This document shows positions 1-8,998 of a stretch of DNA of 8,998 bases, in pieces. The notes beneath the pieces are model-generated. The model searched no databases, was not told the DNA's origin, and worked only from the letters and a program-made list of their open reading frames with translations. The DNA is taken from contig JAFQUG010000061.1 of assembly GCA_017408625.1 (NCBI GenBank), positions 1-8,998 on the forward strand, written 5' to 3'. Both the position numbers and the translations under genes were made by a program. This DNA is from Clostridia bacterium. GTDB lineage: Bacteria; Bacillota_A; Clostridia; Oscillospirales; CAG-272. Positions within the stretch are counted from its first letter, which is position 1; each line of letters starts with the position of its first letter.

Positions 1-72
1 CCCGAATACATGTATTGATAAAGAATTTTTTATGGTTTGTGATTATATAGATTAAACCGTAAAAAGTATAAC
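1..72. other. AT-rich window edge, possible 3' tail of an upstream gene
   Basis: This AT-rich stretch precedes a terminator. Plus-strand frame 2 is open from base 2 to a TAA at 53-55 (17 residues), and frame 3 is open to a TAG at 48-50. Either could be the tail of an upstream gene ended by the hairpin at 73-101. Two frames are open and nothing is recognisable in either, so I do not choose between them. Confidence 0.25.
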
Positions 73-101
73 AGGAGATGCATAATTGCATCTCCTTTTT
101 T
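73..101 (+). terminator. Intrinsic terminator of an upstream unit
   Basis: AGGAGATGCA (73-82) pairs perfectly with TGCATCTCCT (87-96) around a 4-base loop, followed by a T run (97-101). This is a canonical rho-independent terminator for a transcript entering from the left. It isolates the gene at 288 from upstream transcription. Confidence 0.85.
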
Positions 102-232
102 CTTATCCCGGTCTCTTCGCACGGCCCCTTCCCCTCGCTACGCTACGCTGCGAGGAACCCCTTCCCCTGCGGGGACGGCTTTGCAGCGCGCGTCCTATTT
201 CGGGTATGTGGTTTGAACAGCTTAACTTTGTG
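102..232. repeat. GC-rich non-coding stretch with short repeats and hairpins
   Basis: No convincing gene is present here. CCCCTTCCCCT occurs twice, at 125-135 and 158-168 (33-base period). CCTCGC (133-138) can pair with GCGAGG (150-155), and TCCCC (163-167) with GGGGA (171-175). I find no well-spaced promoter for the gene at 288 in this interval. It could be a structured leader, an unrecognised small RNA, or an intergenic repeat of this genome. Confidence 0.4.
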
Positions 233-287
233 AAAAAATCCTCCGTTTACGGGGAATACTTTATGTATTACCGCACGGAGGTTTTTT
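233..287 (+). promoter_or_regulatory. Hairpin enclosing the ribosome binding site of the GlgB-like gene
   Basis: CCTCCGT (240-246) pairs with ACGGAGG (275-281). If T239 is bulged, the helix continues as A6 (233-238) against T6 (282-287). Inside, CGG (250-252) pairs with CCG (271-273) and AATAC (255-259) with GTATT (265-269) around a 5-base loop. The GGAGG at 277-281 is the ribosome site for the ATG at 288, so the folded form hides it. The GC helix followed by six T also has the form of an intrinsic terminator ending exactly at the start codon. It could act as a translational switch, a transcription attenuator, or both. The pairing is seen directly; the regulatory role is inferred. Confidence 0.55.
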
Positions 288-2099
288 ATGATCTATGAAA
301 CGCAGGCATCGAGCGGCGCGGCCTCTCTTGCCGACTATTATCTGCAAAAGGGAAACGGAACGCATGCCTATCGCTATTTTGGCGTGCACAGGCTACTTGA
401 CAGGCCGGATTGGAGCTACGTATTTCGCGTAGCTGCGCCCGGAGCGGATCGGGTCAGTCTGGTTGGGGAGTGGGATGGCTGGGAGCCCGTGCCCATGCAG
501 CGCATCCCACAAAGTGGTGTATGGGAGCTTTGCATGCGCGCGGGAATCTGCCCGGAGGGCTTGCGGTACAAGTATCTTGTAGAAACGGGAGATGGCAGGC
601 ATTATAAGGCCGATCCGTATGCCCGTGCGAGTGAGTGCAGCGGGGAAGGCGCATCTTATATCAGCACCGAGCAGCATTACGTCTGGCACGACCGTGATTA
701 TCTTTCCGCAAGAGCCATGCATCACAGTGAACACGAAAAGTATGCATATCCCATGAACATCTATGAAGCAGAGCTTCTTGGCTGGTTGGATCGGGATGCC
801 GTGGGTGTGGACGCCAATTACCGCATCATAGCCGATCTGCTCGCGCAATATTTGGCCGATATGGGATATACGCACCTGCTTTTGCACAGTGTTTGCCGTC
901 AGAATGCAGGCAAAGAGGGCATCGTGTCATATTTCGCTCCCGACAGTGTGCTTGGCACGCAGGATGATTTTGCATACTTTGTGGATCGCATGCACAAGGA
1001 GCAGATCGGTGTGATCATGGAGCTGGAGTGCCGTGCCCCCGGCACGCACGTGGGCGGTCTTGTCAACCTTGACGGCGCGGGCGCGTATGCATCCATGCGG
1101 GACGGCAGGGCTCGATTTGCTTATGCAGACCCTTACGCTACCACTCTGCTGTATTCTGCGGTTATGTTCTGGCTGCGCGAATATCATCTGGACGGCTTGT
1201 ATATCAATGCAGAAGGGATGAGTCCAGACCGATCAACGGGAGACTTTGTCAGAGGACTTGCGGCTCACGTGCATAAAGGGATGCCTGATGCATTGCTGCT
1301 TTTGCGCGGTGCGGGTCACCGGGGGCTGAGCACGGATGCCGCATGGGGAGGACTTGGATACGATCTGGTCATCGATCCGCGCGTCGAGAGAGCCATGCTT
1401 GATTGCTTTGCCATGCCGACGGATATTCGCCTTGGCAGACAGGCCTGGCGCGAGCCTGCCGGATATGTATTCGCTGAGGACTGCATTCTTGCACTGTCAT
1501 CCGAGCTGATTGCAGAGCGCGCTACGTCTGTGCTTGAAGCCTTGGCGGGTGACAGAGTACAAAAATTTGCATCCATGCGACTGCTGTTTTTCTATATGAC
1601 CTGTCTGCCGGGAAAAAAGCTGATCTTTATGGGCAATGAGATCGGGCAGTCGACAGTCTGGCAGGTGGGCGGTAGTATGGAATGGTTTGTGCGGGAGCTG
1701 GATTTTCATAAGGAATTGTACCAATACGTTAGGGCACTCAACCGACTGTATGGGCAAATCCCTGCGCTGTGGGAGTGTGATTTTGGCAAGGATGGGATCT
1801 CGGCAGTGATGCTTGATAATGCACCCGAGGGTGTGATTGCCTTCCGACGCTTCGACCGAGCGGGCAGGGAGGTTTGTGTACTGATCAATTTCGGTCAGAA
1901 AGAGGCACAGGGCATACGTGCGCAGCTTGGCGGTAAATATCCGTATTACGAGCAAATCTTTGCTACGAATGAGCAAAGCGAGCCCAAACGCCTGCAGATC
2001 GACGGTGACGGACGTGCCACGCTTGATTTGCAAGGGCTTTCCGGAATTCTTCTCGCCCCCCTACCGCCGGCAAACGGATTTTGGATGGAAAATGTTTGA
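288..2099 (+). CDS. GlgB-like protein lacking the branching-enzyme catalytic residues (probable pseudoenzyme)
   Basis: The 603-residue protein aligns by eye along the whole length of bacterial 1,4-alpha-glucan branching enzymes (GH13), which are usually somewhat longer. A CBM48-like domain spans about 40-125 (VFRVAAPGADRVSLVGEWDGW, GLRYKYLVE, KADPYA). A barrel follows from MNIYE at 156, with SYFAPDSVLGTQDDFAYFVD (214-233), HLDGLYINAEG (300-310), GGLGYD (354-359) and PGKKLIFMGNEIGQ (441-454). A C-terminal beta domain includes GVIAFRRFDRAGREVCVLINF (515-535). The catalytic positions are altered. The nucleophile motif DGLRVDA reads DGLYINA, giving N307 for Asp and Y305 for the invariant Arg. The acid/base AEES position reads LRGA (R340 for Glu). 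SHDE reads SSEL (404-407). The first GH13 motif DWVPAHF reads ELECRAP. The loop after the nucleophile is shortened. The frame is intact and well translated (GGAGG 277-281, 6-base spacer), which suggests a retained non-catalytic role such as glycogen binding or regulation. That role is inferred. Confidence 0.85.
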   Translation: MIYETQASSGAASLADYYLQKGNGTHAYRYFGVHRLLDRPDWSYVFRVAAPGADRVSLVGEWDGWEPVPMQRIPQSGVWELCMRAGICPEGLRYKYLVETGDGRHYKADPYARASECSGEGASYISTEQHYVWHDRDYLSARAMHHSEHEKYAYPMNIYEAELLGWLDRDAVGVDANYRIIADLLAQYLADMGYTHLLLHSVCRQNAGKEGIVSYFAPDSVLGTQDDFAYFVDRMHKEQIGVIMELECRAPGTHVGGLVNLDGAGAYASMRDGRARFAYADPYATTLLYSAVMFWLREYHLDGLYINAEGMSPDRSTGDFVRGLAAHVHKGMPDALLLLRGAGHRGLSTDAAWGGLGYDLVIDPRVERAMLDCFAMPTDIRLGRQAWREPAGYVFAEDCILALSSELIAERATSVLEALAGDRVQKFASMRLLFFYMTCLPGKKLIFMGNEIGQSTVWQVGGSMEWFVRELDFHKELYQYVRALNRLYGQIPALWECDFGKDGISAVMLDNAPEGVIAFRRFDRAGREVCVLINFGQKEAQGIRAQLGGKYPYYEQIFATNEQSEPKRLQIDGDGRATLDLQGLSGILLAPLPPANGFWMENV

Positions 2100-2179: not shown

Positions 2180-3595
2180 GTGGACGCCAGAATCAAGAGA
2201 CTGTTTGGAAATACCGTGATCTTTACGGTAGGAAAATTTGTATCCAAAATGTTGGTCTTTTTGATGATGCCGTTGTATACCGCATGCCTGTCCGAGGCGC
2301 AGTATTCCACCGCGGATCTGATCACGCAGCTTGCCAATCTGCTCATCCCGTTGGCTTGCCTTGGCATTGCCGAGGGACTGTTCCGCAATGCAGCAGCCAA
2401 GGAAGGGGATAAGGAAGCCTTTTTCTCAAGCGGCATGGCCATTTTGGCCATCAGCTCGGCAGGCTTTTTGCTGCTCTCGCCGCTGCTTTTGCTGCTGGAA
2501 TACTTCGCATCCTACGTTTGGCTGATCGTCATTTTCGTGCTGTGCTCCAATTTTCATTCGGTTTGCGCGCAGTACGTTTGTGCCATCGGCAGAACCAAGA
2601 CCTTTGCTTTTCAGGGCATTCTGAATACCGCACTCAATATTGGCTTCAATCTGTTGTTCCTTTTGGGCTTTGGAATGAAGATCGAGGGATACGTGCTCAG
2701 CGTTGTGTGTGCCGATTTTGTCACCACGCTTGTGCTGATTGTGTATTGCAGACTGTGGCGCGCCTTTTCGTTCAAAAAGATCTCACGCAAGATCATGGGT
2801 GAGATGCTGCGCTTTTCCTTGCCGCTGATCCCCACCACCGTATTCTGGTGGATCACGGGAGTTTCCGACCGCTATCTGGTCGCGCGCATGCGCTCGGATG
2901 CAGAGAACGGCCTTTACGCGGCTGCCTATAAGATCCCCACGCTGCTGACGTATATGGTCTCGGTATTCAACGAAGCATGGAGACTGTCCGCAGTCAAGGA
3001 GTCGGATGACCCCGATGCGTGCGCCGATTTCTTTGGCAAGGTGTTCCGCTATTATGTGGCCATTGTGTTTGTGGGCGGGGCAGGCTTGATTGCATTTGCC
3101 AAGGTGGGCTCAGTGCTGCTGTTTGCCGATTCTTATTATCAGGCATGGCTGTACGTGCCGATTTTGGTGCTTGCCACGGTATTCACCTCATTTGACTCGT
3201 TCCTGGCAACCGCCTATTTCACCAAGAAAAAGACCATGGTATCGTTTTATACCTCCATGGTGGGCGCGATCCTCAATGTAGTGCTGAATCTGATCTGGAT
3301 TCCCGCGTGGGGGGCAGTCGGTGCGTCGGTTGCAACGTTTGTCAGCTATTTTGCTGTCTTTGTACTGCGTGCGGCTACCATGCATCGTTATATCCGCTTC
3401 AATTTGCAGATCCCGCGCATTGCAATCAATACCGTGCTGCTTGGCGGCATGACGGTCATTATGATGACCGAGCCGTATCTCTGGCAGCTGTACATCGGTC
3501 TTTTGGCTGTTGCGGTAGTGGGGTTGAATGCGCCCGCGCTGCTCTCCATGCTCAAAATGCTGCCCGAGATGCTGAAGGGAAGACTGAAACGCTGA
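2180..3595 (+). CDS. Polysaccharide/oligosaccharide flippase, MOP superfamily (Wzx-like)
   Basis: This 471-residue, strongly hydrophobic integral membrane protein should have about 12-14 transmembrane segments. It is of the RfbX/Wzx type that moves lipid-linked saccharides across the cytoplasmic membrane. Family features include the N-terminal stretch around residues 10-50, with PLYTACLSEAQYSTADL (31-47), which resembles the usual P-x-Y-T-x-x-L-s-x-x-x-Y-g-x-x-D pattern. GVSDRYLV (227-234) and YAAAYKIPTLLTYMVSVFNEAWRLSA (246-271) are typical of the central region. The length is normal for the family. The start is GTG at 2180, 7 bases after GGGGAGG (2166-2172); no ATG fits better. It has its own promoter and no glycosyltransferase neighbours, so the substrate (capsule, teichoic or exopolysaccharide unit) cannot be told. 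A MurJ- or SpoVB-like role is a less likely alternative. Confidence 0.85.
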   Translation: MDARIKRLFGNTVIFTVGKFVSKMLVFLMMPLYTACLSEAQYSTADLITQLANLLIPLACLGIAEGLFRNAAAKEGDKEAFFSSGMAILAISSAGFLLLSPLLLLLEYFASYVWLIVIFVLCSNFHSVCAQYVCAIGRTKTFAFQGILNTALNIGFNLLFLLGFGMKIEGYVLSVVCADFVTTLVLIVYCRLWRAFSFKKISRKIMGEMLRFSLPLIPTTVFWWITGVSDRYLVARMRSDAENGLYAAAYKIPTLLTYMVSVFNEAWRLSAVKESDDPDACADFFGKVFRYYVAIVFVGGAGLIAFAKVGSVLLFADSYYQAWLYVPILVLATVFTSFDSFLATAYFTKKKTMVSFYTSMVGAILNVVLNLIWIPAWGAVGASVATFVSYFAVFVLRAATMHRYIRFNLQIPRIAINTVLLGGMTVIMMTEPYLWQLYIGLLAVAVVGLNAPALLSMLKMLPEMLKGRLKR

Positions 3596-3760: not shown

Positions 3761-4102
3761 ATGAATCTGATCGAGGCTTTTACAAACGAGCAATTGAAGG
3801 CAGAAATTCCTTCTGTCAACGTTGGTGACACCGTACGTGTTCACAACAAGATCAAAGAGGGTTCCAGAGAGAGAATCCAGCTTTTCGAGGGTACTGTTAT
3901 CGCGAAGCACGGTGCAGGTATCTCCGCTACCTTTACTGTAAGAAGAATTTCTTACGGCTGCGGTGTTGAAAAGACTTTCCCCATCCACTCTCCCAATGTA
4001 GTCGCTGTTGACACTATCCGTCGTGGTAAGGTCAGACGTGCAAAGCTGTACTACCTGCGCGGCAGAGTTGGTAAGGCTTCTAAGGTTAAGGAAAAAATCT
4101 AA
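3761..4102 (+). CDS. rplS: Large-subunit ribosomal protein bL19
   Basis: This 113-residue protein has the full bL19 sequence, including [14 protein letters not shown] (21-34), [11 protein letters not shown] (38-48) and the conserved [16 protein letters not shown] region (63-78). The C-terminal [17 protein letters not shown] is also typical. bL19 sits at the interface of the 30S and 50S subunits. The ribosome site AAGGAGG (3745-3751) lies 9 bases before the ATG. Codon use differs from its neighbours, with GGT, GTT, TCT/TCC and AGA favoured, as expected of a highly expressed gene. In many Firmicutes rplS ends the rpsP-rimM-trmD operon. Here it has its own strong promoter and terminator, so it is monocistronic. 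Confidence 0.98.
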
Positions 4103-4112
4103 TCTTAGGGAA

Positions 4113-4156
4113 ATAGAAAAGGCGAACGCGATCATGCGCTCGCCTTTTCTATATTT
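4113..4156. terminator. Bidirectional terminator after rplS
   Basis: ATAGAAAAGGCGA (4113-4125) pairs perfectly with TCGCCTTTTCTAT (4140-4152). After one mismatch, CGC (4127-4129) pairs with GCG (4136-4138). The stem has A/T tracts on both sides, so it can act on both strands. It ends rplS and can stop read-through from the convergent gene. Confidence 0.85.
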
Positions 4157-4283
4157 GCGCCTTCGAAAATGGTTGACTGCTGCGTTGCTCCTATGTGCGC
4201 CTTGCATTCAAACAATTTTCGTGCGGCTATGTGGTACCACAACCGCCCACAGGGCGTCATCACTTGCCAAAGGCACCCATCAC
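4156..4283. other. Hairpin-rich spacer between two convergent terminators
   Basis: No gene is supported here. The stretch contains TGCGCCTT twice (4156-4163 and 4196-4203, 40 bases apart) and an inverted pair, CGAAAAT (4164-4170) with ATTTTCG (4215-4221). It also holds a perfect 12-base palindrome TGTGGTACCACA (4230-4241), a hairpin CGCCC-ACA-GGGCG (4244-4256) and a hairpin TGCC-AAA-GGCA (4265-4275). It could be an intergenic repeat element, a small RNA, or decayed sequence. Confidence 0.4.
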
Positions 4284-4318
4284 AAAACGGCAGATGCGCC
4301 AAGCGCATCTGCCGTTTT
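4284..4318 (-). terminator. Terminator of the Gfo/Idh/MocA gene
   Basis: AAAACGGCAGATGCGC (4284-4299) pairs perfectly over 16 bases with GCGCATCTGCCGTTTT (4303-4318) around a 3-base loop. On the minus strand it follows the stop codon at 4323-4325 within a few bases and ends in TTTT. By symmetry it may also act on the plus strand. Confidence 0.85.
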
Positions 4319-4322
4319 AACT

Positions 4323-5390
4323 TTACCACTCCAGCTTGATTTCTTGGTTTTGCTCGGAGCTGTCGTAGATGGCTTGCATCATACGCGCGGTGATGATGAC
4401 CTGGTCGATGTGAGAGGGAAGCTTTTCGCCCGTCTTGATGCAGCGGATGAAGGAATCGATCTCGTTCTGGAACATATGTACGCTGTCGTATTCGGGAATT
4501 TCCTTGGTCAACTTGCCGTCCTTGGTACCGAATACCGTGAAATTGCCGCCGTAGTTGAGGCGAACGCCTGCCTTGTCGCCAAGGAAGTCGATATAAGCCT
4601 CGCCAATGCCGATGTTTTGCGCCCATGCACCGTTGAAGGTGATGGTCGGACCCTCGGTGCGGATAAAGCCGGTGACGCTGTCGTCTACGTCGTAGGTGCC
4701 GTTTATGTCCTTGGTATCCTCAGCCCACATGCCCTCATAAACGTAGTTCGGCATATCTACGCCCAGCTTGCAAAATGCCTTGCCCGAAACGGTCAGAGGC
4801 TTGGGATCGCCCGTGCAGTACATCACGATATCCAGGTAATGCACGCCCCAGTCGATCAGAGCACCGCCGCCTGCGATCTCCTTGGTGGTAAACGCACCGC
4901 CAAGTCCCGGGATCGAACGCCATGCGCGGAAGGATACGTATACGTGATAGACCTCGCCAAGATCACCGTTCTCGATCAGCTTTCTGATCTCGTTGACAGC
5001 CGTATTGAAGCGGTTGACCACGCCGATGTTGAGTACCTTACCCGACTTGTGCTGTGCCTCTTGCATCAGCTTTGCCTCGGCATAGGTGCGTGCCGCGGGC
5101 TTTTCGCAAAGCACGTGCTTGCCATGCTCCAAAAAGTCAATGGCAATGGTGGTATGCATACGGTTGGGGGTGCAGACCGAAACTGCCTCGATCTCCGGGT
5201 CGTCCAAAATCTCATGGTAGTCCACGATGGCAGTACCGCAGCCGTATTTTTCCACGGCAGCCTGAGCCTTTTCGGGAATGATGTCGCAGAAATACTTGAT
5301 CTCTACCTCGGGATTGTTCATGTATGCGGGAATATGTGCGCTGTTAGCGATCGTTCCGCAGCCGATCACGGCAACCTTTGTTTTGCTCAT
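4323..5390 (-). CDS. Gfo/Idh/MocA-family NAD(P)-dependent oxidoreductase
   Basis: The protein has 355 residues, a normal length. An N-terminal Rossmann fold shows VAVIGCGTIANSAHIPAY (6-23), with the dinucleotide-binding glycines at 10 and 12. SVCTPNRMHTTIA (71-83) and the family hallmark CEKPAA (95-100, EKP at 96-98) follow. In the C-terminal domain, GGGALIDWGVHYLD (174-187) supplies the D180/H184 pair expected at the active site. The family oxidises or reduces sugars, inositols, sugar acids and similar polyols. The residues here do not tell which, so no specific name is given. It is probably cytoplasmic, since no signal peptide is visible. The ATG at 5390 is preceded by AAGGAGG (5398-5404 on the minus strand) with a 7-base spacer. 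It is a single-gene unit, with its own promoter and terminator, divergent from dut. Confidence 0.92.
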   Translation of the reverse strand: MSKTKVAVIGCGTIANSAHIPAYMNNPEVEIKYFCDIIPEKAQAAVEKYGCGTAIVDYHEILDDPEIEAVSVCTPNRMHTTIAIDFLEHGKHVLCEKPAARTYAEAKLMQEAQHKSGKVLNIGVVNRFNTAVNEIRKLIENGDLGEVYHVYVSFRAWRSIPGLGGAFTTKEIAGGGALIDWGVHYLDIVMYCTGDPKPLTVSGKAFCKLGVDMPNYVYEGMWAEDTKDINGTYDVDDSVTGFIRTEGPTITFNGAWAQNIGIGEAYIDFLGDKAGVRLNYGGNFTVFGTKDGKLTKEIPEYDSVHMFQNEIDSFIRCIKTGEKLPSHIDQVIITARMMQAIYDSSEQNQEIKLEW

Positions 5391-5422
5391 GGGTCGTCCT
5401 CCTTGATAAAACTGTTACCATG

Positions 5423-5451
5423 ATTATACTCCTTTTTGATCAATTCGTCAA
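5423..5451 (-). promoter_or_regulatory. Promoter of the Gfo/Idh/MocA gene
   Basis: Read on the minus strand, TTGACG (5451-5446) is followed after exactly 17 bases by a consensus TATAAT (5428-5423). The start codon is about 33 bases beyond the -10 box, leaving a short leader that contains the ribosome site. Confidence 0.85.
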
Positions 5452-5461
5452 GAATAATTGC

Positions 5462-5508
5462 ATATGTTCACACCGTGTTAAAAAATATTTGTTACACTAT
5501 GAACATAT
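5462..5508. promoter_or_regulatory. 9-base inverted repeat in the divergent spacer upstream of dut
   Basis: ATATGTTCA (5462-5470) is perfectly repeated in inverse as TGAACATAT (5500-5508), 29 bases apart. Between them lies a weak extended -10-like sequence, TGT followed by TACACT (5490-5498), possibly the dut promoter; no good -35 box accompanies it at 17 bases. The arms could be operator half-sites or simply a weak hairpin in the dut leader. Confidence 0.35.
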
Positions 5509-5529
5509 TATCTTACTCGGAGGAAAGTT

Positions 5530-5967
5530 GTGACAGTCAAGATCGTAAAGCTGCAGCAAAATGCACACGTCCCCACCTACGGAAGCGCCGACGCAGCAGG
5601 CGCGGATCTGTATGCATGCATTGACGAGGCGGTGACCATACAGCCAAGTCAGACCGTGCTGATCCCCACGGGACTTTCGATGGAGATCGAGCAGGGCTTT
5701 GCGGAATTTATCTATGCGCGCAGCGGCCTTGCCACCAAGCGCGGGCTTGCGCCTGCCAATAAGGTCGGCGTGATTGATAGCGACTACCGCGGCCAGGTCA
5801 TGGTCTCTTTGCATAATCATACCGAGCAGCCGCAGACGGTTGAGCCGGGTGAGAGAGTGGCGCAGATGGTTTTCGCACCGGTGTACCAAGCACAGTTCTG
5901 CGAGGTGGATGCACTGCAGGAAACCGAGAGAGGCACGGGCGGCTTTGGCTCGACCGGCACGAAATAA
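5530..5967 (+). CDS. dut: Deoxyuridine 5'-triphosphate nucleotidohydrolase (dUTPase)
   Basis: This enzyme hydrolyses dUTP to dUMP and pyrophosphate, keeping uracil out of DNA and feeding dTMP synthesis; it is a cytoplasmic trimer. All five trimeric-dUTPase motifs are present in its 145 residues. Motif 1 is AAGADLYA (22-29) and motif 2 is RSGLA (64-68). Motif 3 is NKVGVIDSDYRG (77-88) with catalytic D83. Motif 4 is GERVAQ (107-112) and motif 5 is RGTGGFGSTG (134-143). The start is GTG at 5530, 6 bases after GGAGG (5519-5523), and no ATG fits the conserved N-terminus. The next gene follows after 42 bases with no visible terminator or promoter, so the two are probably co-transcribed. Confidence 0.97.
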   Translation: MTVKIVKLQQNAHVPTYGSADAAGADLYACIDEAVTIQPSQTVLIPTGLSMEIEQGFAEFIYARSGLATKRGLAPANKVGVIDSDYRGQVMVSLHNHTEQPQTVEPGERVAQMVFAPVYQAQFCEVDALQETERGTGGFGSTGTK

Positions 5968-6009
5968 GGTAAGTAAATCAAAAACAAAAAATATTGATTG
6001 GAGGAACGT

Positions 6010-7368
6010 ATGAAAACGATCAGATTTTTCTCTATGATCCTTGCGATGCTGATGCTCGGCGTTTGCTTTGTCGGCTGTGACGGCGGAAACGAAGAGACCA
6101 CAACTCCCGAGGATACCACGGCTCCCGAGGGGACTGCAGCTCCCGAGCAGACCACACCCGAAGAGACCACCGAAGAGCAGACCGAGCCCGAAAAGCCCGA
6201 GGAGCTGCTTGCTTACGACACCTACTACCTGGATACCTATATGAAGCCTATCTGGAAGGGCAAGTACATGTATAACGAGACTGTCATGTTCGTCGGCATG
6301 GACGACAAGGCGTCCTTGCTGTATACACCCGACGAGATCCTTTCCGTCACCTCTTACGACCTGAAAACGGTTTACGAGCAGGGCAAGGACTATGACCTTG
6401 TAGATGGGAAGCTGGTGCTGCTTGAGGGCACGCGCATTCCCGTCATCACCTTTGAGGAATACTATCACGAAACCGAGATCCCCGGTATGCCCGCACAGCT
6501 TGTTACCAAGTATGACGGAAAGCAATATTATACCTATTGGGGTGAGGGCGTTGTCATGACCCAGTGGCAGATCGCCGTGACCTACACGCACAGCCAGACC
6601 TGGGAGGGCTTTGTACCCGAGACCTCGAATCAGTTTGCAAAGCTGATCGCAAAGCTGGAGGCAGGTCAGGATGCTACCATGATCTTCTATGGCGACAGCA
6701 TCACCTTCGGCGCATCCTCGTCGGGTCTTTCCGGCACCAATCCTTACGCACCCTCTTATACCCAGCTGTTCACGCAGTACCTGGCGCAGAAGTACGGCTA
6801 TACCGTCAAGTACGTCAACACCGGCCTTACCGGTGCTGCAGTTCCTCCCGCAGAGGACACCGTGTTCGGTACAAACGGTACCATTACCTATATCAATCCC
6901 GCCGTGGGCGGTTGGACCAGTGCTGACGGCTTTAACAAGTTTGACGAATACGTCAAGCCCTTCGTAGAGCAGTACGGCTGTGATTTCTTCCTGCTGGCAT
7001 TCGGTATGAACGATGCAGGAAATTCCCCCAAGAACGAGCAGAAGGCGATCAAGAAGATCTCGGATAAGCTGTATGAGATCGCACCCGAGGCAGAGATGCT
7101 GCTTGTAGCGACCATGATCCCCAATCCCGAGGCTACCAACGGCTGGTACGGCAATCAGCACCGCTTTGAGAACGTGTTTGAAGCGCTTGCGGCAGACTAT
7201 GTAGAGGACGGTAAGTCCTGCGCCGTCGCTAAGATGACCACCATGAGCCAGAGAATTCTGGAGAACAAGCGCTTCCGCGACCATACCGGCAACAACATCA
7301 ACCATCCCAACGACTTCTTGAGCAGAATTTACGCACAGGTTGTTTACCAGACCGTGATCGGTTATTAA
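6010..7368 (+). CDS. SGNH/GDSL-hydrolase lipoprotein, probable carbohydrate esterase
   Basis: The chosen start is ATG at 6010, with GGAGG (6000-6004) 5 bases upstream. A TTG at 5998 would lie within or before the ribosome site. The 452-residue product begins with a lipoprotein signal peptide and lipobox FVGC (Cys23). A Thr/Glu/Pro-rich linker (about 24-66) follows, so the protein is likely anchored on the outer face of the membrane. An accessory domain (about 67-215) is followed by an SGNH hydrolase domain. There, MIFYGDSITFG carries the nucleophile S230, LLAFGMNDAG (block III GxND) lies at about 328-337, and NNINHPNDF carries the presumed catalytic H432. The position three before this His, usually Asp, is Asn, so it may use a Ser-His dyad as CE2 esterases do. 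The two-domain order also recalls CE2. Deacetylation of a surface or dietary polysaccharide is inferred. Confidence 0.85.
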   Translation: MKTIRFFSMILAMLMLGVCFVGCDGGNEETTTPEDTTAPEGTAAPEQTTPEETTEEQTEPEKPEELLAYDTYYLDTYMKPIWKGKYMYNETVMFVGMDDKASLLYTPDEILSVTSYDLKTVYEQGKDYDLVDGKLVLLEGTRIPVITFEEYYHETEIPGMPAQLVTKYDGKQYYTYWGEGVVMTQWQIAVTYTHSQTWEGFVPETSNQFAKLIAKLEAGQDATMIFYGDSITFGASSSGLSGTNPYAPSYTQLFTQYLAQKYGYTVKYVNTGLTGAAVPPAEDTVFGTNGTITYINPAVGGWTSADGFNKFDEYVKPFVEQYGCDFFLLAFGMNDAGNSPKNEQKAIKKISDKLYEIAPEAEMLLVATMIPNPEATNGWYGNQHRFENVFEALAADYVEDGKSCAVAKMTTMSQRILENKRFRDHTGNNINHPNDFLSRIYAQVVYQTVIGY

Positions 7369-7377
7369 GAAAAGCAA

Positions 7378-7410
7378 AAAAGCCTCGCATGCAAATGCGG
7401 GGCTTTTCTT
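7378..7410 (+). terminator. Intrinsic terminator after the SGNH lipoprotein gene
   Basis: AAAAGCCTCGCAT (7378-7390) pairs with ATGCGGGGCTTTT (7395-7407) around a GCAA loop, with one T-G wobble, then CTT. The last two T of this tail (7409-7410) are also the first two bases of the next promoter's TTGACA. Confidence 0.85.
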
Positions 7411-7437
7411 GACAATGATCGCAAAGCATGATAAAAT
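7409..7437 (+). promoter_or_regulatory. Extended -10 promoter for the AIM24-family/GH35 unit
   Basis: The -35 box TTGACA (7409-7414) is perfect, with a 17-base spacer, an extended -10 TGA (7429-7431) and the -10 box TAAAAT (7432-7437). The architecture matches the promoter at 2118-2146, including a shared GCAAAG just upstream of the TGA. The -35 box abuts the preceding terminator. Confidence 0.85.
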
Positions 7438-7469
7438 AAAAGCAAAGAAAGACCAAGGAGGTATGACTG

Positions 7470-8153
7470 ATGATCAAATATGAAATTCAAGGGGATTCGC
7501 TTCCCGTTGTGATCTGTTATCCCGAAGCAGGGCAAACGCTTTGCACAGAGAGAGGGGCTATGAGCTGGATGAGCCCCAATATGAAAATGGAAACAAACGC
7601 AGGCGGCTTTGGCAAGGCCATGGGCAGACTGTTTTCGGGCGAATCCGTGTTTTTGAACGAATATACCGCAGAGGGTCGCCCCGGCATGATCGCGTTTTCG
7701 TCCTCCTTCCCGGGATCGATCCTGCCTTTCCACGTCACGCCCGGTAACGGTATCATCGTGCAGAAAAAGGGCTTTTTGGCCATGGAGAAGGGACTGGATC
7801 TGTCCATCCATTTCCGCAAAAAGATCGGCCAAGGGTTGTTTGGCGGTGAAGGCTTTATCATGCAGAAGATCACGGGCGACGGCCTTGTGTTTATCGAGAT
7901 CGACGGCTACTGCAAGGAATATGAGCTTGCCGCAGGGCAGAGCATTATACTCGGCACAGGGTATCTTGCAGCCATGACCGAGACCTGCACCATGGATCTG
8001 GAAAGCGTCAAGGGCGCGAAAAACGTGCTGTTTGGCGGCGAGGGCTTCTTTAACACGCGTGTGACCGGCCCGGGTAAGATCTGGGTACAGTCCATGCCCA
8101 TTATGGCAACAGCGGCAGCCATTGCACCGTATATTCCCACAAGTAACGATTGA
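7470..8153 (+). CDS. AIM24 / TIGR00266-family protein of unknown function
   Basis: This 227-residue protein is of the AIM24 family (TIGR00266 group), small beta-rich proteins widespread in bacteria with no firmly established biochemical role. Family features include RGAMSWMSPNMKMET (29-42), the mid-protein YTAEGRPGMIAFSSSFPGSI region (65-84) and two related beta units. The units are GLFGGEGFIMQKITGDGLVFIE (122-143) and VLFGGEGFFNTRVTGPGKIWVQ (186-207), showing internal duplication of an LFGGEGF-TGxG pattern. It has no signal peptide or membrane segment except a mildly hydrophobic C-terminal stretch (MATAAAIAPYIP). The ribosome site AAGGAGG (7455-7461) lies 8 bases before ATG 7470; an out-of-frame ATG sits at 7463. 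It is the first gene of a unit with the GH35 gene 3 bases downstream. Confidence 0.88.
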   Translation: MIKYEIQGDSLPVVICYPEAGQTLCTERGAMSWMSPNMKMETNAGGFGKAMGRLFSGESVFLNEYTAEGRPGMIAFSSSFPGSILPFHVTPGNGIIVQKKGFLAMEKGLDLSIHFRKKIGQGLFGGEGFIMQKITGDGLVFIEIDGYCKEYELAAGQSIILGTGYLAAMTETCTMDLESVKGAKNVLFGGEGFFNTRVTGPGKIWVQSMPIMATAAAIAPYIPTSND

Positions 8154-8156
8154 GAT

Positions 8157-8998
8157 ATGGATATGAAGCACACATTTGCATACGAAAATGCACAATTTCT
8201 TTATGACGGTCAACCCGTGACCATTCTGTCTGGTGCTGTGCATTATTTCCGCACCCTTCCCGAGCAATGGGAGGACAGACTGCTCAAGCTCAAGGCATGT
8301 GGGCTCAATACGGTTGAGACCTATACCTGCTGGAATCTGCACGAACGCAAGGAAGGGCAGTTTGACTTCTCGGGGCTGCTTGATATTGAGAGATTTATCG
8401 AAACGGCAGAAAGGCTGGGGCTTTTCGTCATTCTTCGCCCCGGACCCTATATTTGCGCTGAATGGGATTTCGGTGGACTTCCTTCCTGGCTGCTCTCTTA
8501 TCCCGATATTGCGCTGCGCTGTGACGACCCCATGTACCTTGAAAAGGTCAAGCCGTATTATCGCGAGCTGCTCTCGCGTATCCGACCGCATCTGTGCACC
8601 AACGGCGGCAACGTCATCATGGTACAGGTCGAGAATGAATACGGTAGCTATGGCGACGATAAGGTCTATTTGCAAAAGATCGTGGATATCTACCGCGAAA
8701 ACGGCATTGATTGTCTGCTGTTCACCTCGGATGGCACGGCTAAGTGGATGCTGAGCGGTGGTACGCTGCCCGAGGTGCTGGCTGTGGCCAATTTCGGCAG
8801 CTATACCGAGCAGATTCTGACCTTGAACGAGTTCCAGAAGGATCGCCCCTTGATGTGCGGTGAGTTCTGGGACGGCTGGTTTGACCATTGGTACGAATCG
8901 GGCACGCAGCTGCGCCCCATCAAGGACATCGTGCGCGAGATCGAAAAGTTCTTTGATCTCGGCGCGTCCTTTAATCTGTATATGTTCCACGGCGGCAC
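8157..8998 (+). CDS. GH35 beta-galactosidase, N-terminal part (runs off the window)
   Basis: The open frame runs from ATG 8157 to the window edge with no stop, giving 280 residues of what should be a 580-700 residue enzyme. It is a clear family-35 beta-galactosidase barrel. Family matches include ILSGAVHYFRTLPEQWEDRL (23-42), GLNTVETYTCWNLHE (49-63), RPGPYICAEWDFGGLPSWL (94-112) and VQVENEYGSYG (156-166) with proton donor E161. LMCGEFWDGWF (232-242) carries nucleophile E236, and YMFHGG (275-280) follows. It hydrolyses terminal beta-galactosyl residues. No signal peptide is seen, so it is probably cytoplasmic and acts on imported oligosaccharides. ATG 8163 is an alternative in-frame start. Neither has a good ribosome site (only GAG at 8152-8154), so translation is probably coupled to the AIM24-family gene ending at 8153. 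Confidence 0.93.
   Translation, partial: MDMKHTFAYENAQFLYDGQPVTILSGAVHYFRTLPEQWEDRLLKLKACGLNTVETYTCWNLHERKEGQFDFSGLLDIERFIETAERLGLFVILRPGPYICAEWDFGGLPSWLLSYPDIALRCDDPMYLEKVKPYYRELLSRIRPHLCTNGGNVIMVQVENEYGSYGDDKVYLQKIVDIYRENGIDCLLFTSDGTAKWMLSGGTLPEVLAVANFGSYTEQILTLNEFQKDRPLMCGEFWDGWFDHWYESGTQLRPIKDIVREIEKFFDLGASFNLYMFHGG

Follow-up and report, generated by a model that had tools for sequence, protein, structure and literature searches.

The window, that is, the whole stretch of 8,998 nucleotides that was analyzed, starts just 287 bases upstream of a gene for a GlgB-like protein, which is preceded by a hairpin and followed by a flippase gene (Table 1). Three long open reading frames, at 4008 to 5423 (plus strand), 5497 to 7377 (minus strand), and 7365 to 8996 (minus strand), lie antisense to or overlap real genes and are probably shadow open reading frames.

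Table 1 Features of the window
Feature	Position	Strand	Basis or remark
Terminator-like hairpin, stem 240-281, T6 run abutting ATG	233..287	+	z -4.5 and -5.05
Inner dyad of hairpin, AATAC/GTATT	255-269	+	Sequence
Shine-Dalgarno GGAGG in 3' arm of hairpin	277-281	+	Sequence
Predicted non-catalytic GlgB paralog	288..2099	+	603 aa: N-terminal segment, CBM48, degenerate GH13 barrel, C-terminal beta domain
N-terminal segment (LADYYLQKGNGTHAYRYFGVHR)	327..392	+	Codons 14-35
CBM48 domain, residues 31-112	378..623	+	Domain match
ELECRAP (residues 245-251), replacing GlgB DWVPAHF; D335 to E, H340 to A	1020..1040	+	Alignment
Y305-I306-N307, replacing R-V-D (invariant Arg and nucleophile Asp)	1200..1208	+	Alignment
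R340 at acid/base Glu position; Arg in 29/29 rows	1305..1307	+	Alignment
SSEL (residues 404-407), replacing SHDE	1497..1508	+	Alignment
Oligosaccharide flippase-like protein (PF01943)	2180..3595	+	Downstream neighbor in 4/4 carrier loci; no part claimed in the mechanism
rplS	3761-4102		Real gene under long open reading frames
Gfo/Idh/MocA oxidoreductase	4323-5390	-	
dut	5530-5967		Real gene under long open reading frames
GDSL lipase-like	5998-7368		Real gene under long open reading frames
AIM24 family	7470-8153		Real gene under long open reading frames
GH35	from 8157		Real gene under long open reading frames

The CBM48, GH13 barrel, and C-terminal beta domain architecture of GlgB is present in full in the window protein, the PGKKLxFMG landmark of GlgB is conserved, and a structure model retains the GlgB fold, with 549 to 581 residues aligned and residues 1 to 30 forming a short strand and a helix ahead of CBM48. 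Domain matches and model thus bear out the initial annotation, which had recognized a GlgB-like CBM48, barrel, and C-terminal domain, and alignment shows its individual residue calls (N307, Y305, R340, SSEL, and ELECRAP) to be right. Its wider statement, that all GH13 catalytic motifs are lost, is correct for the window protein but does not extend across the family described below, in which Asp survives at the nucleophile position in 8 of the 29 rows. The window protein misses the NCBIfam GlgB equivalog cutoffs (score/cutoff, 312/577, 287/741, and 243/464 bits).

Catalytic residues in the family and in other GlgB-like proteins

The protein search covered 5.8 billion proteins, with at most 7995 candidates sharing short words being scored. 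Among the best 120 of 3343 matches were 28 full-length relatives at 52 to 95% identity and one fragment of 362 amino acids, the next GlgB proteins standing at 36% identity or less. A family profile search returned the same 29, and scores dropped from 590 bits for the last member (the fragment) to 417 bits for the first GlgB. Frames of about 600 codons are retained in the 28 relatives, 122 columns are invariant across the 29 family rows, and CBM48 is matched in 29/29 members, the Pfam alpha-amylase domain in only 4/29. On viral contigs, 13 pattern matches included no relative.

Alignment A2 consists of 96 rows, the window protein and 28 relatives versus 67 other GlgB-like rows, and its active-site columns are designated by what we take to be the corresponding E. 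coli residue numbers (Y300, D335, H340, R403, D405, E458, H525, and D526). The initial annotation had looked to orthologs with the same substitutions, and one substitution is indeed common to all: the acid/base column (E458) is Arg in 29/29 family rows. In the transition-state column (D526) Asp is found in 0/29 (A in 20, E in 5, others in the rest), and His at H525 and Arg at R403 are likewise found in 0/29. The nucleophile column (D405) is mixed, with N in 17 rows, D in 8, C in 2, H in 1, and R in 1; the D335 column is E in 25/29 and D in 1/29, H340 is retained in 1/29, and Y300 in 2/29. Every family row is therefore without, at a minimum, the acid/base Glu and the transition-state Asp, and the Asp/Glu/Asp triad with the His, Arg, and Tyr subsite residues of GlgB is not to be found in the family. 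Relative to GlgB, 44 alignment columns are deleted in the family. Six of the 67 comparison rows in A2 also lack a triad residue.

The family is monophyletic with support of 100 both in a tree with 22 of the 29 family rows and, under a mixture model, in a tree with 11 family rows from which five GlgB rows were left out. An origin by recent duplication of the genus's own GlgB is not favored by the trees, which place the own GlgBs in another group, but it may still apply; holding the family and the own GlgBs together as one group was not rejected in the mixture-model tree with 11 family rows (p-AU 0.072). In the 22-row tree, the family groups (support of 87) with L088, itself a copy that has lost residues; this grouping was flagged as long branches meeting, and these sequences neither establish nor exclude a common origin of the two.

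Twelve of 218 GlgB-like rows lack at least one triad residue, one being L001, a family locus, and 11 lying outside the family; 12/218 is not a frequency because the sample was picked by similarity and includes some duplicates (P0030 among them). Five of the lost-triad rows are loci titled Clostridia or Ruminococcus. L046, from Ruminococcus bromii YE282, has Gly for the nucleophile Asp and nevertheless passes two NCBIfam GlgB cutoffs. Three copies are from the taxonomic family of G001, the sheep-colon metagenome-assembled genome RGIG5376 that is the source of L001: L088 (G082) has lost all three triad residues, L097 (G017) the nucleophile and the acid/base Glu (with Asp at the acid/base position), and L098 (G100) the acid/base residue. 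Further GlgB-like copies with lost residues are L012, L034, L060, and L075 and P0037, P0043, P0045, P0049, P0082, and P0085. In 4/4 such genomes checked (R. bromii, G017, G082, and G100) another copy retains all eight residues. That of R. bromii is a clear GlgB (918/741 bits); those of G017, G082, and G100 are divergent GlgB-like proteins whose scores fall below the NCBIfam cutoffs (291-295/577), so the term intact GlgB can be used with confidence for R. bromii alone. The cutoffs are not diagnostic of activity, since one nucleophile-less copy passes and three residue-intact copies fail.

Genomic context and the hairpin preceding the start codon

Among 196 genomes drawn from the taxonomic family of G001, the gene is present in three (G001, G116, and G159; 56 to 72% identity), which are three of four genomes examined from one genus. 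In G159 it is in two overlapping pieces at contig ends. A GlgB that retains all eight residues is encoded in each of G001, G116, G159, and also G069, that of G116 being divided between two contigs; those of G001 and G069 pass the NCBIfam GlgB cutoff (848 to 859 bits). Less than 9 kb from the intact GlgB gene of G001, and on its strand, are glgA and a gene for glycogen phosphorylase; in G069 the intact GlgB gene is followed by glgC and glgA. The second, catalytic GlgB anticipated in the initial annotation is thus represented, as far as its residues go, in 3/3 carrier genomes (G001, G116, and G159), and the family protein is therefore not the only GlgB of the cell and probably not its branching enzyme.

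The gene order in G116 is argR-recN-argS-yebC-gene-flippase; by eye, G159 shows this order across two contigs and L001 contains the same genes, with two small genes between yebC and the gene that show weak matches to 2'-5' RNA ligase and DUF559. A GC-rich repeat (CCCCTTCCCCTCGCTACGCTACGCTGCGAGGAACCCC...) is present in L001 at about 7280 to 7350 and 7820 to 7930, in opposite orientations flanking the DUF559-like gene, and one copy lies upstream of the gene in the window, at about 115 to 205. As the initial annotation had remarked for the window, the gene is not beside glg genes in the carrier loci examined. In L144 (G019, same taxonomic family), this flippase is immediately preceded by a GlgB gene and glgC and followed, by eye, by rplS.

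In G069, the gene is absent between yebC and the flippase. A four-gene tree, in which the window is represented by its flippase only, groups G069 with the window and G001 with moderate support (83/87), and loss in G069 is therefore likelier than never having had the gene. The gene has thus probably been lost outright there, and would therefore be dispensable. yebC and the flippase are also adjacent without the gene in 3/12 loci from other genomes of the taxonomic family of G001, and in the remaining loci the flippase has differing neighbors. A promoter-like sequence (TTGACA-17-TAAAAT) lies between gene and flippase at 2118 to 2146 of the window, and similar sequences are visible in L001, L117, and G069. 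The idea of an operon-style shared function with the flippase is weakened by this promoter-like sequence of its own and by the yebC adjacency without the gene (G069 and 3/12 loci).

The hairpin structure that abuts the start codon in the window does so also in L001, L083, and L115 (z of -7.6, -6.8, and -5.3). Both arms of the outer stem differ between the two species pairs. The features of a terminator-type attenuator, a stable hairpin, a U run, and a Shine-Dalgarno sequence in the 3' arm, are all present, and we read the hairpin as a putative terminator-like element that would also hide the ribosome-binding site. A simple terminator scan of window positions 1 to 400 listed no promoter and, at the site of the long hairpin, only short hairpins at 239 to 255 inside it, and no Rfam match reached the gathering threshold in the window, L001, L083, or L084. 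The inner dyad occurs once each in G001, G116, and G159 and not at all in G069, with zero control matches, which gives no support to the hairpin being a genome-wide repeat. The hairpin-ATG junction (CGGAGGTTTTTTATG) is likewise found once in each carrier genome and not in G069, a test that alone says little because its backward control was found twice in G001. A plain yebC terminator is a less fitting reading of the hairpin in L001, where two genes part it from yebC and it stays with the family gene. In L154 (G069), at about 1640 to 1780 on the minus strand, the outer stem and T run are kept, the inner dyad is decayed, and there is no start codon (z -3.5); this is probably a deletion scar. The outer stem, kept in G069 without the gene, may therefore serve yebC there, and the inner dyad, which was lost along with its gene, is a possible operator. 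A second AATAC-GTATT dyad (AATACATGTATT) is found near the window start, at 5 to 16.

Selection and the location of constraint

We estimated dN/dS by pairwise maximum-likelihood codon models from the DNA of four family members. For the window and G001, omega was 0.130 (dN 0.185, dS 1.42), and omega = 1 was rejected (2lnL 266); for G116 and G159, omega was 0.157 (dN 0.238, dS 1.52), with omega = 1 again rejected (2lnL 218). Only these two least saturated pairs are quoted because dS reached at least 2 in the four remaining family pairs. The neutral decay that would have spoken against the initial annotation is therefore not observed. The adjacent flippase has an omega of 0.050 and a dN of 0.028 between the window and G001, and the genus's own GlgBs, whose codon rows run stop to stop and so include some codons upstream of the start, have an omega of 0.06 to 0.12 and a dN of 0.06 to 0.13. 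Over matching species pairs, the family protein exceeds four neighboring genes in dN by a factor of 2.3 (recN) to 20 (argS) and the genus's own GlgB by a factor of about four. The family protein is constrained yet fast-changing.

For the comparison of constraint within the protein we used 29 family and 116 GlgB rows, excluding lost-triad GlgB rows as well as L101 and L031, which are changed only beside the triad; the active-site face was defined from the secondary structure of the model and not from coordinate distances. Between GlgB pairs at an identity of 0.6 to 0.7, 48% of positions differ in the N-terminal segment (residues 14 to 40), 50% in CBM48, and 21% in the active-site face, whereas between family pairs at the same identity these values are 15%, 29%, and 45%. 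Residues 14 to 40 show the lowest variability of any region in family pairs. At an identity of 0.5 to 0.7, the active-site face is more variable than the mean of N terminus and CBM48 in 320/320 family pairs versus 0/5854 GlgB pairs; the pairs are not independent, and the separation is complete. Among the closest family pairs (0.7 to 0.85), the C-terminal domain is slightly above the face in variability (0.32 versus 0.30). Column entropies agree with the inversion; the set behind them excluded P0001 as a near-duplicate, along with the six GlgB-like P rows of A2 that lack a triad residue. This inverted constraint is the strongest new result of our analysis, and it indicates that selection has moved off the catalytic cleft onto the N-terminal segment and the carbohydrate-binding module.

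Seventeen positions are fixed in at least 28/29 family rows in a state unlike that conserved in at least 85% of GlgB rows; they include P248C, P252G, D254H, T219D, R281D, E340R, and H384R, and two of the 17 are gaps in GlgB. A concentration of the newly fixed residues in the cleft was considered and discarded, with 8/12 barrel positions in beta-to-alpha loops versus 172/335 barrel residues (hand count), no clear excess.

Proposed function and relation to known systems

Taken together, the sequences indicate that the window gene belongs to a conserved, apparently non-catalytic GlgB family and is not one odd gene. Selection on a non-catalytic function, as proposed in the initial annotation, is well supported by the 28 orthologs, the low omega, the intact GlgB in 3/3 carrier genomes, and the inverted constraint. 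We suggest, at about an even chance, that a GlgB paralog gave up branching and was kept as a hairpin-gated accessory protein for a glucan or glycogen enzyme. Through its N-terminal/CBM48 surface the protein would attach to alpha-glucan (glycogen) or to one of the glycogen enzymes, the intact GlgB being the probable one, and the binding would adjust where or how branches are placed, like the proposal for ISA2 in plants. The hairpin over the ribosome-binding site would gate synthesis, both by ending transcripts that come from upstream and by masking the Shine-Dalgarno sequence. That the protein binds glucan or GlgB is our best inference, one as likely to be right as wrong. CBM48 domains of branching enzymes have been found with maltooligosaccharides or cyclodextrins bound in crystals, according to the accessible text of PMC6243121. 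Against this explanation stand the high divergence (dN of 0.185, versus 0.028 for the adjacent flippase, between the window and G001), the probable loss of the gene in G069, its position away from glg genes in the carrier loci examined, and the shorter competing hairpin that the simple terminator scan lists inside the long one.

The newly fixed cleft residues R340, C248, H254, D281, and R384 would also fit a different ligand. This raises the possibility, which we consider unlikely, that the former cleft has been remodeled to receive some other ligand (a sugar, a nucleotide sugar, or a lipid-linked glycan), perhaps serving the flippase and not glycogen. The 17 newly fixed positions and the flippase downstream in 4/4 carrier loci would agree with such a receptor, but the active-site face is overall the most variable part of the family at an identity of 0.5 to 0.7, the flippase adjoins yebC without the gene in G069 and 3/12 other loci, and the promoter-like sequence separates the two genes.

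The protein might instead be a dominant-negative or assembly partner of the intact GlgB, tuning it purely through putative heteromers and with no glucan binding. Such a reading would draw on the full GlgB fold being kept, on outer helices and far-side loops that are less variable than the cleft face (0.91 versus 1.32 bits of entropy), and on the intact GlgB in 3/3 carrier genomes. We think it improbable, as the most constrained region carries a carbohydrate-binding module. Equally improbable in our judgment is relaxed selection on a slow pseudogene on its way out: the raised dN relative to the four neighbors and the own GlgB, the absence from G069, and the lost-residue GlgB-like copies elsewhere in Clostridia are what such a gene would show, but omega is 0.13 to 0.16 with omega = 1 rejected, the frames of about 600 codons and the 122 invariant columns persist, and constraint is concentrated in one part of the protein. 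A changed enzyme, with catalysis kept or gained through other residues such as the nucleophile Asp of 8/29 rows, the Glu at D335 of 25/29, or the R, C, H, and D that have become fixed in the cleft, is very unlikely given an acid/base Arg in 29/29, a transition-state Asp and its His missing in 29/29, and a cleft face that is the most variable region in family pairs at 0.5 to 0.7 identity.

The accessory protein that we favor resembles GlgB (GH13_9) in domain order, in a fold shared over 549 to 581 residues, in CBM48, and in the PGKKLxFMG landmark, and differs from it in the lost catalytic residues, the 44 deleted columns, the missed NCBIfam cutoffs, and the inverted constraint. Our literature search, which covered mainly openly available papers, found no conserved bacterial GlgB pseudoenzyme among the matches listed; passages on glgB1/glgB2 in PMC5716241 and PMC4282360 had no bearing on the question. 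In the part of PMC11046441 available, a branching-enzyme domain rendered inactive is described in the GlgA-GlgB fusion of some Chlamydiae, and a table of archaeal GH13 counts marks one inactive isoform; the chlamydial domain was inactivated by rearrangement and fusion, whereas the family is stand-alone, substituted, conserved, and found beside an intact GlgB. Plant proteins of the PTST/FLO6 type, as presented in the accessible text of PMC6243121, likewise carry CBM48 without being catalytic and bind both glucan and starch enzymes, but PTST1 consists of coiled coils and CBM48, whereas the family retains the whole GH13 barrel.

The closest parallel in kind is plant ISA2 (GH13_11). The available text of PMC12510319 describes it as a non-catalytic GH13 paralog with CBM48 that evolves faster than its catalytic paralogs, with at least four of five catalytic residues changed, the nucleophile included, and as proposed to work through glucan binding in complexes. 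The family is likewise monophyletic and under purifying selection, with residues lost, fast evolution, and a catalytic paralog in 3/3 carrier genomes. It differs in being GlgB-like and not isoamylase-like, in being bacterial, and in having the nucleophile Asp in 8/29 rows; the ISA2-specific N-terminal beta-sandwich is absent from the model of the window protein, and partner complexes are proposed for ISA2 in the same text, whereas one for the family would be hypothetical. More doubtful is the wider idea, drawn from this analogy, that spare GlgB copies in Clostridia have time and again become glycogen scaffolds led by CBM48, counterparts of ISA2, with the hairpin serving in this genus as terminator, ribosome-binding-site lock, and possibly operator. 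If so, giving up the chemistry of the enzyme would be a way, taken more than once, for bacteria to set the architecture of their glycogen. A GlgB-like sequence is, in any case, not always a branching enzyme. That a non-catalytic GH13 paralog shapes a storage glucan is already known in plants from ISA2, and a conserved bacterial GlgB-like counterpart would make it testable whether binding proteins, besides enzymes, set the architecture of glycogen.
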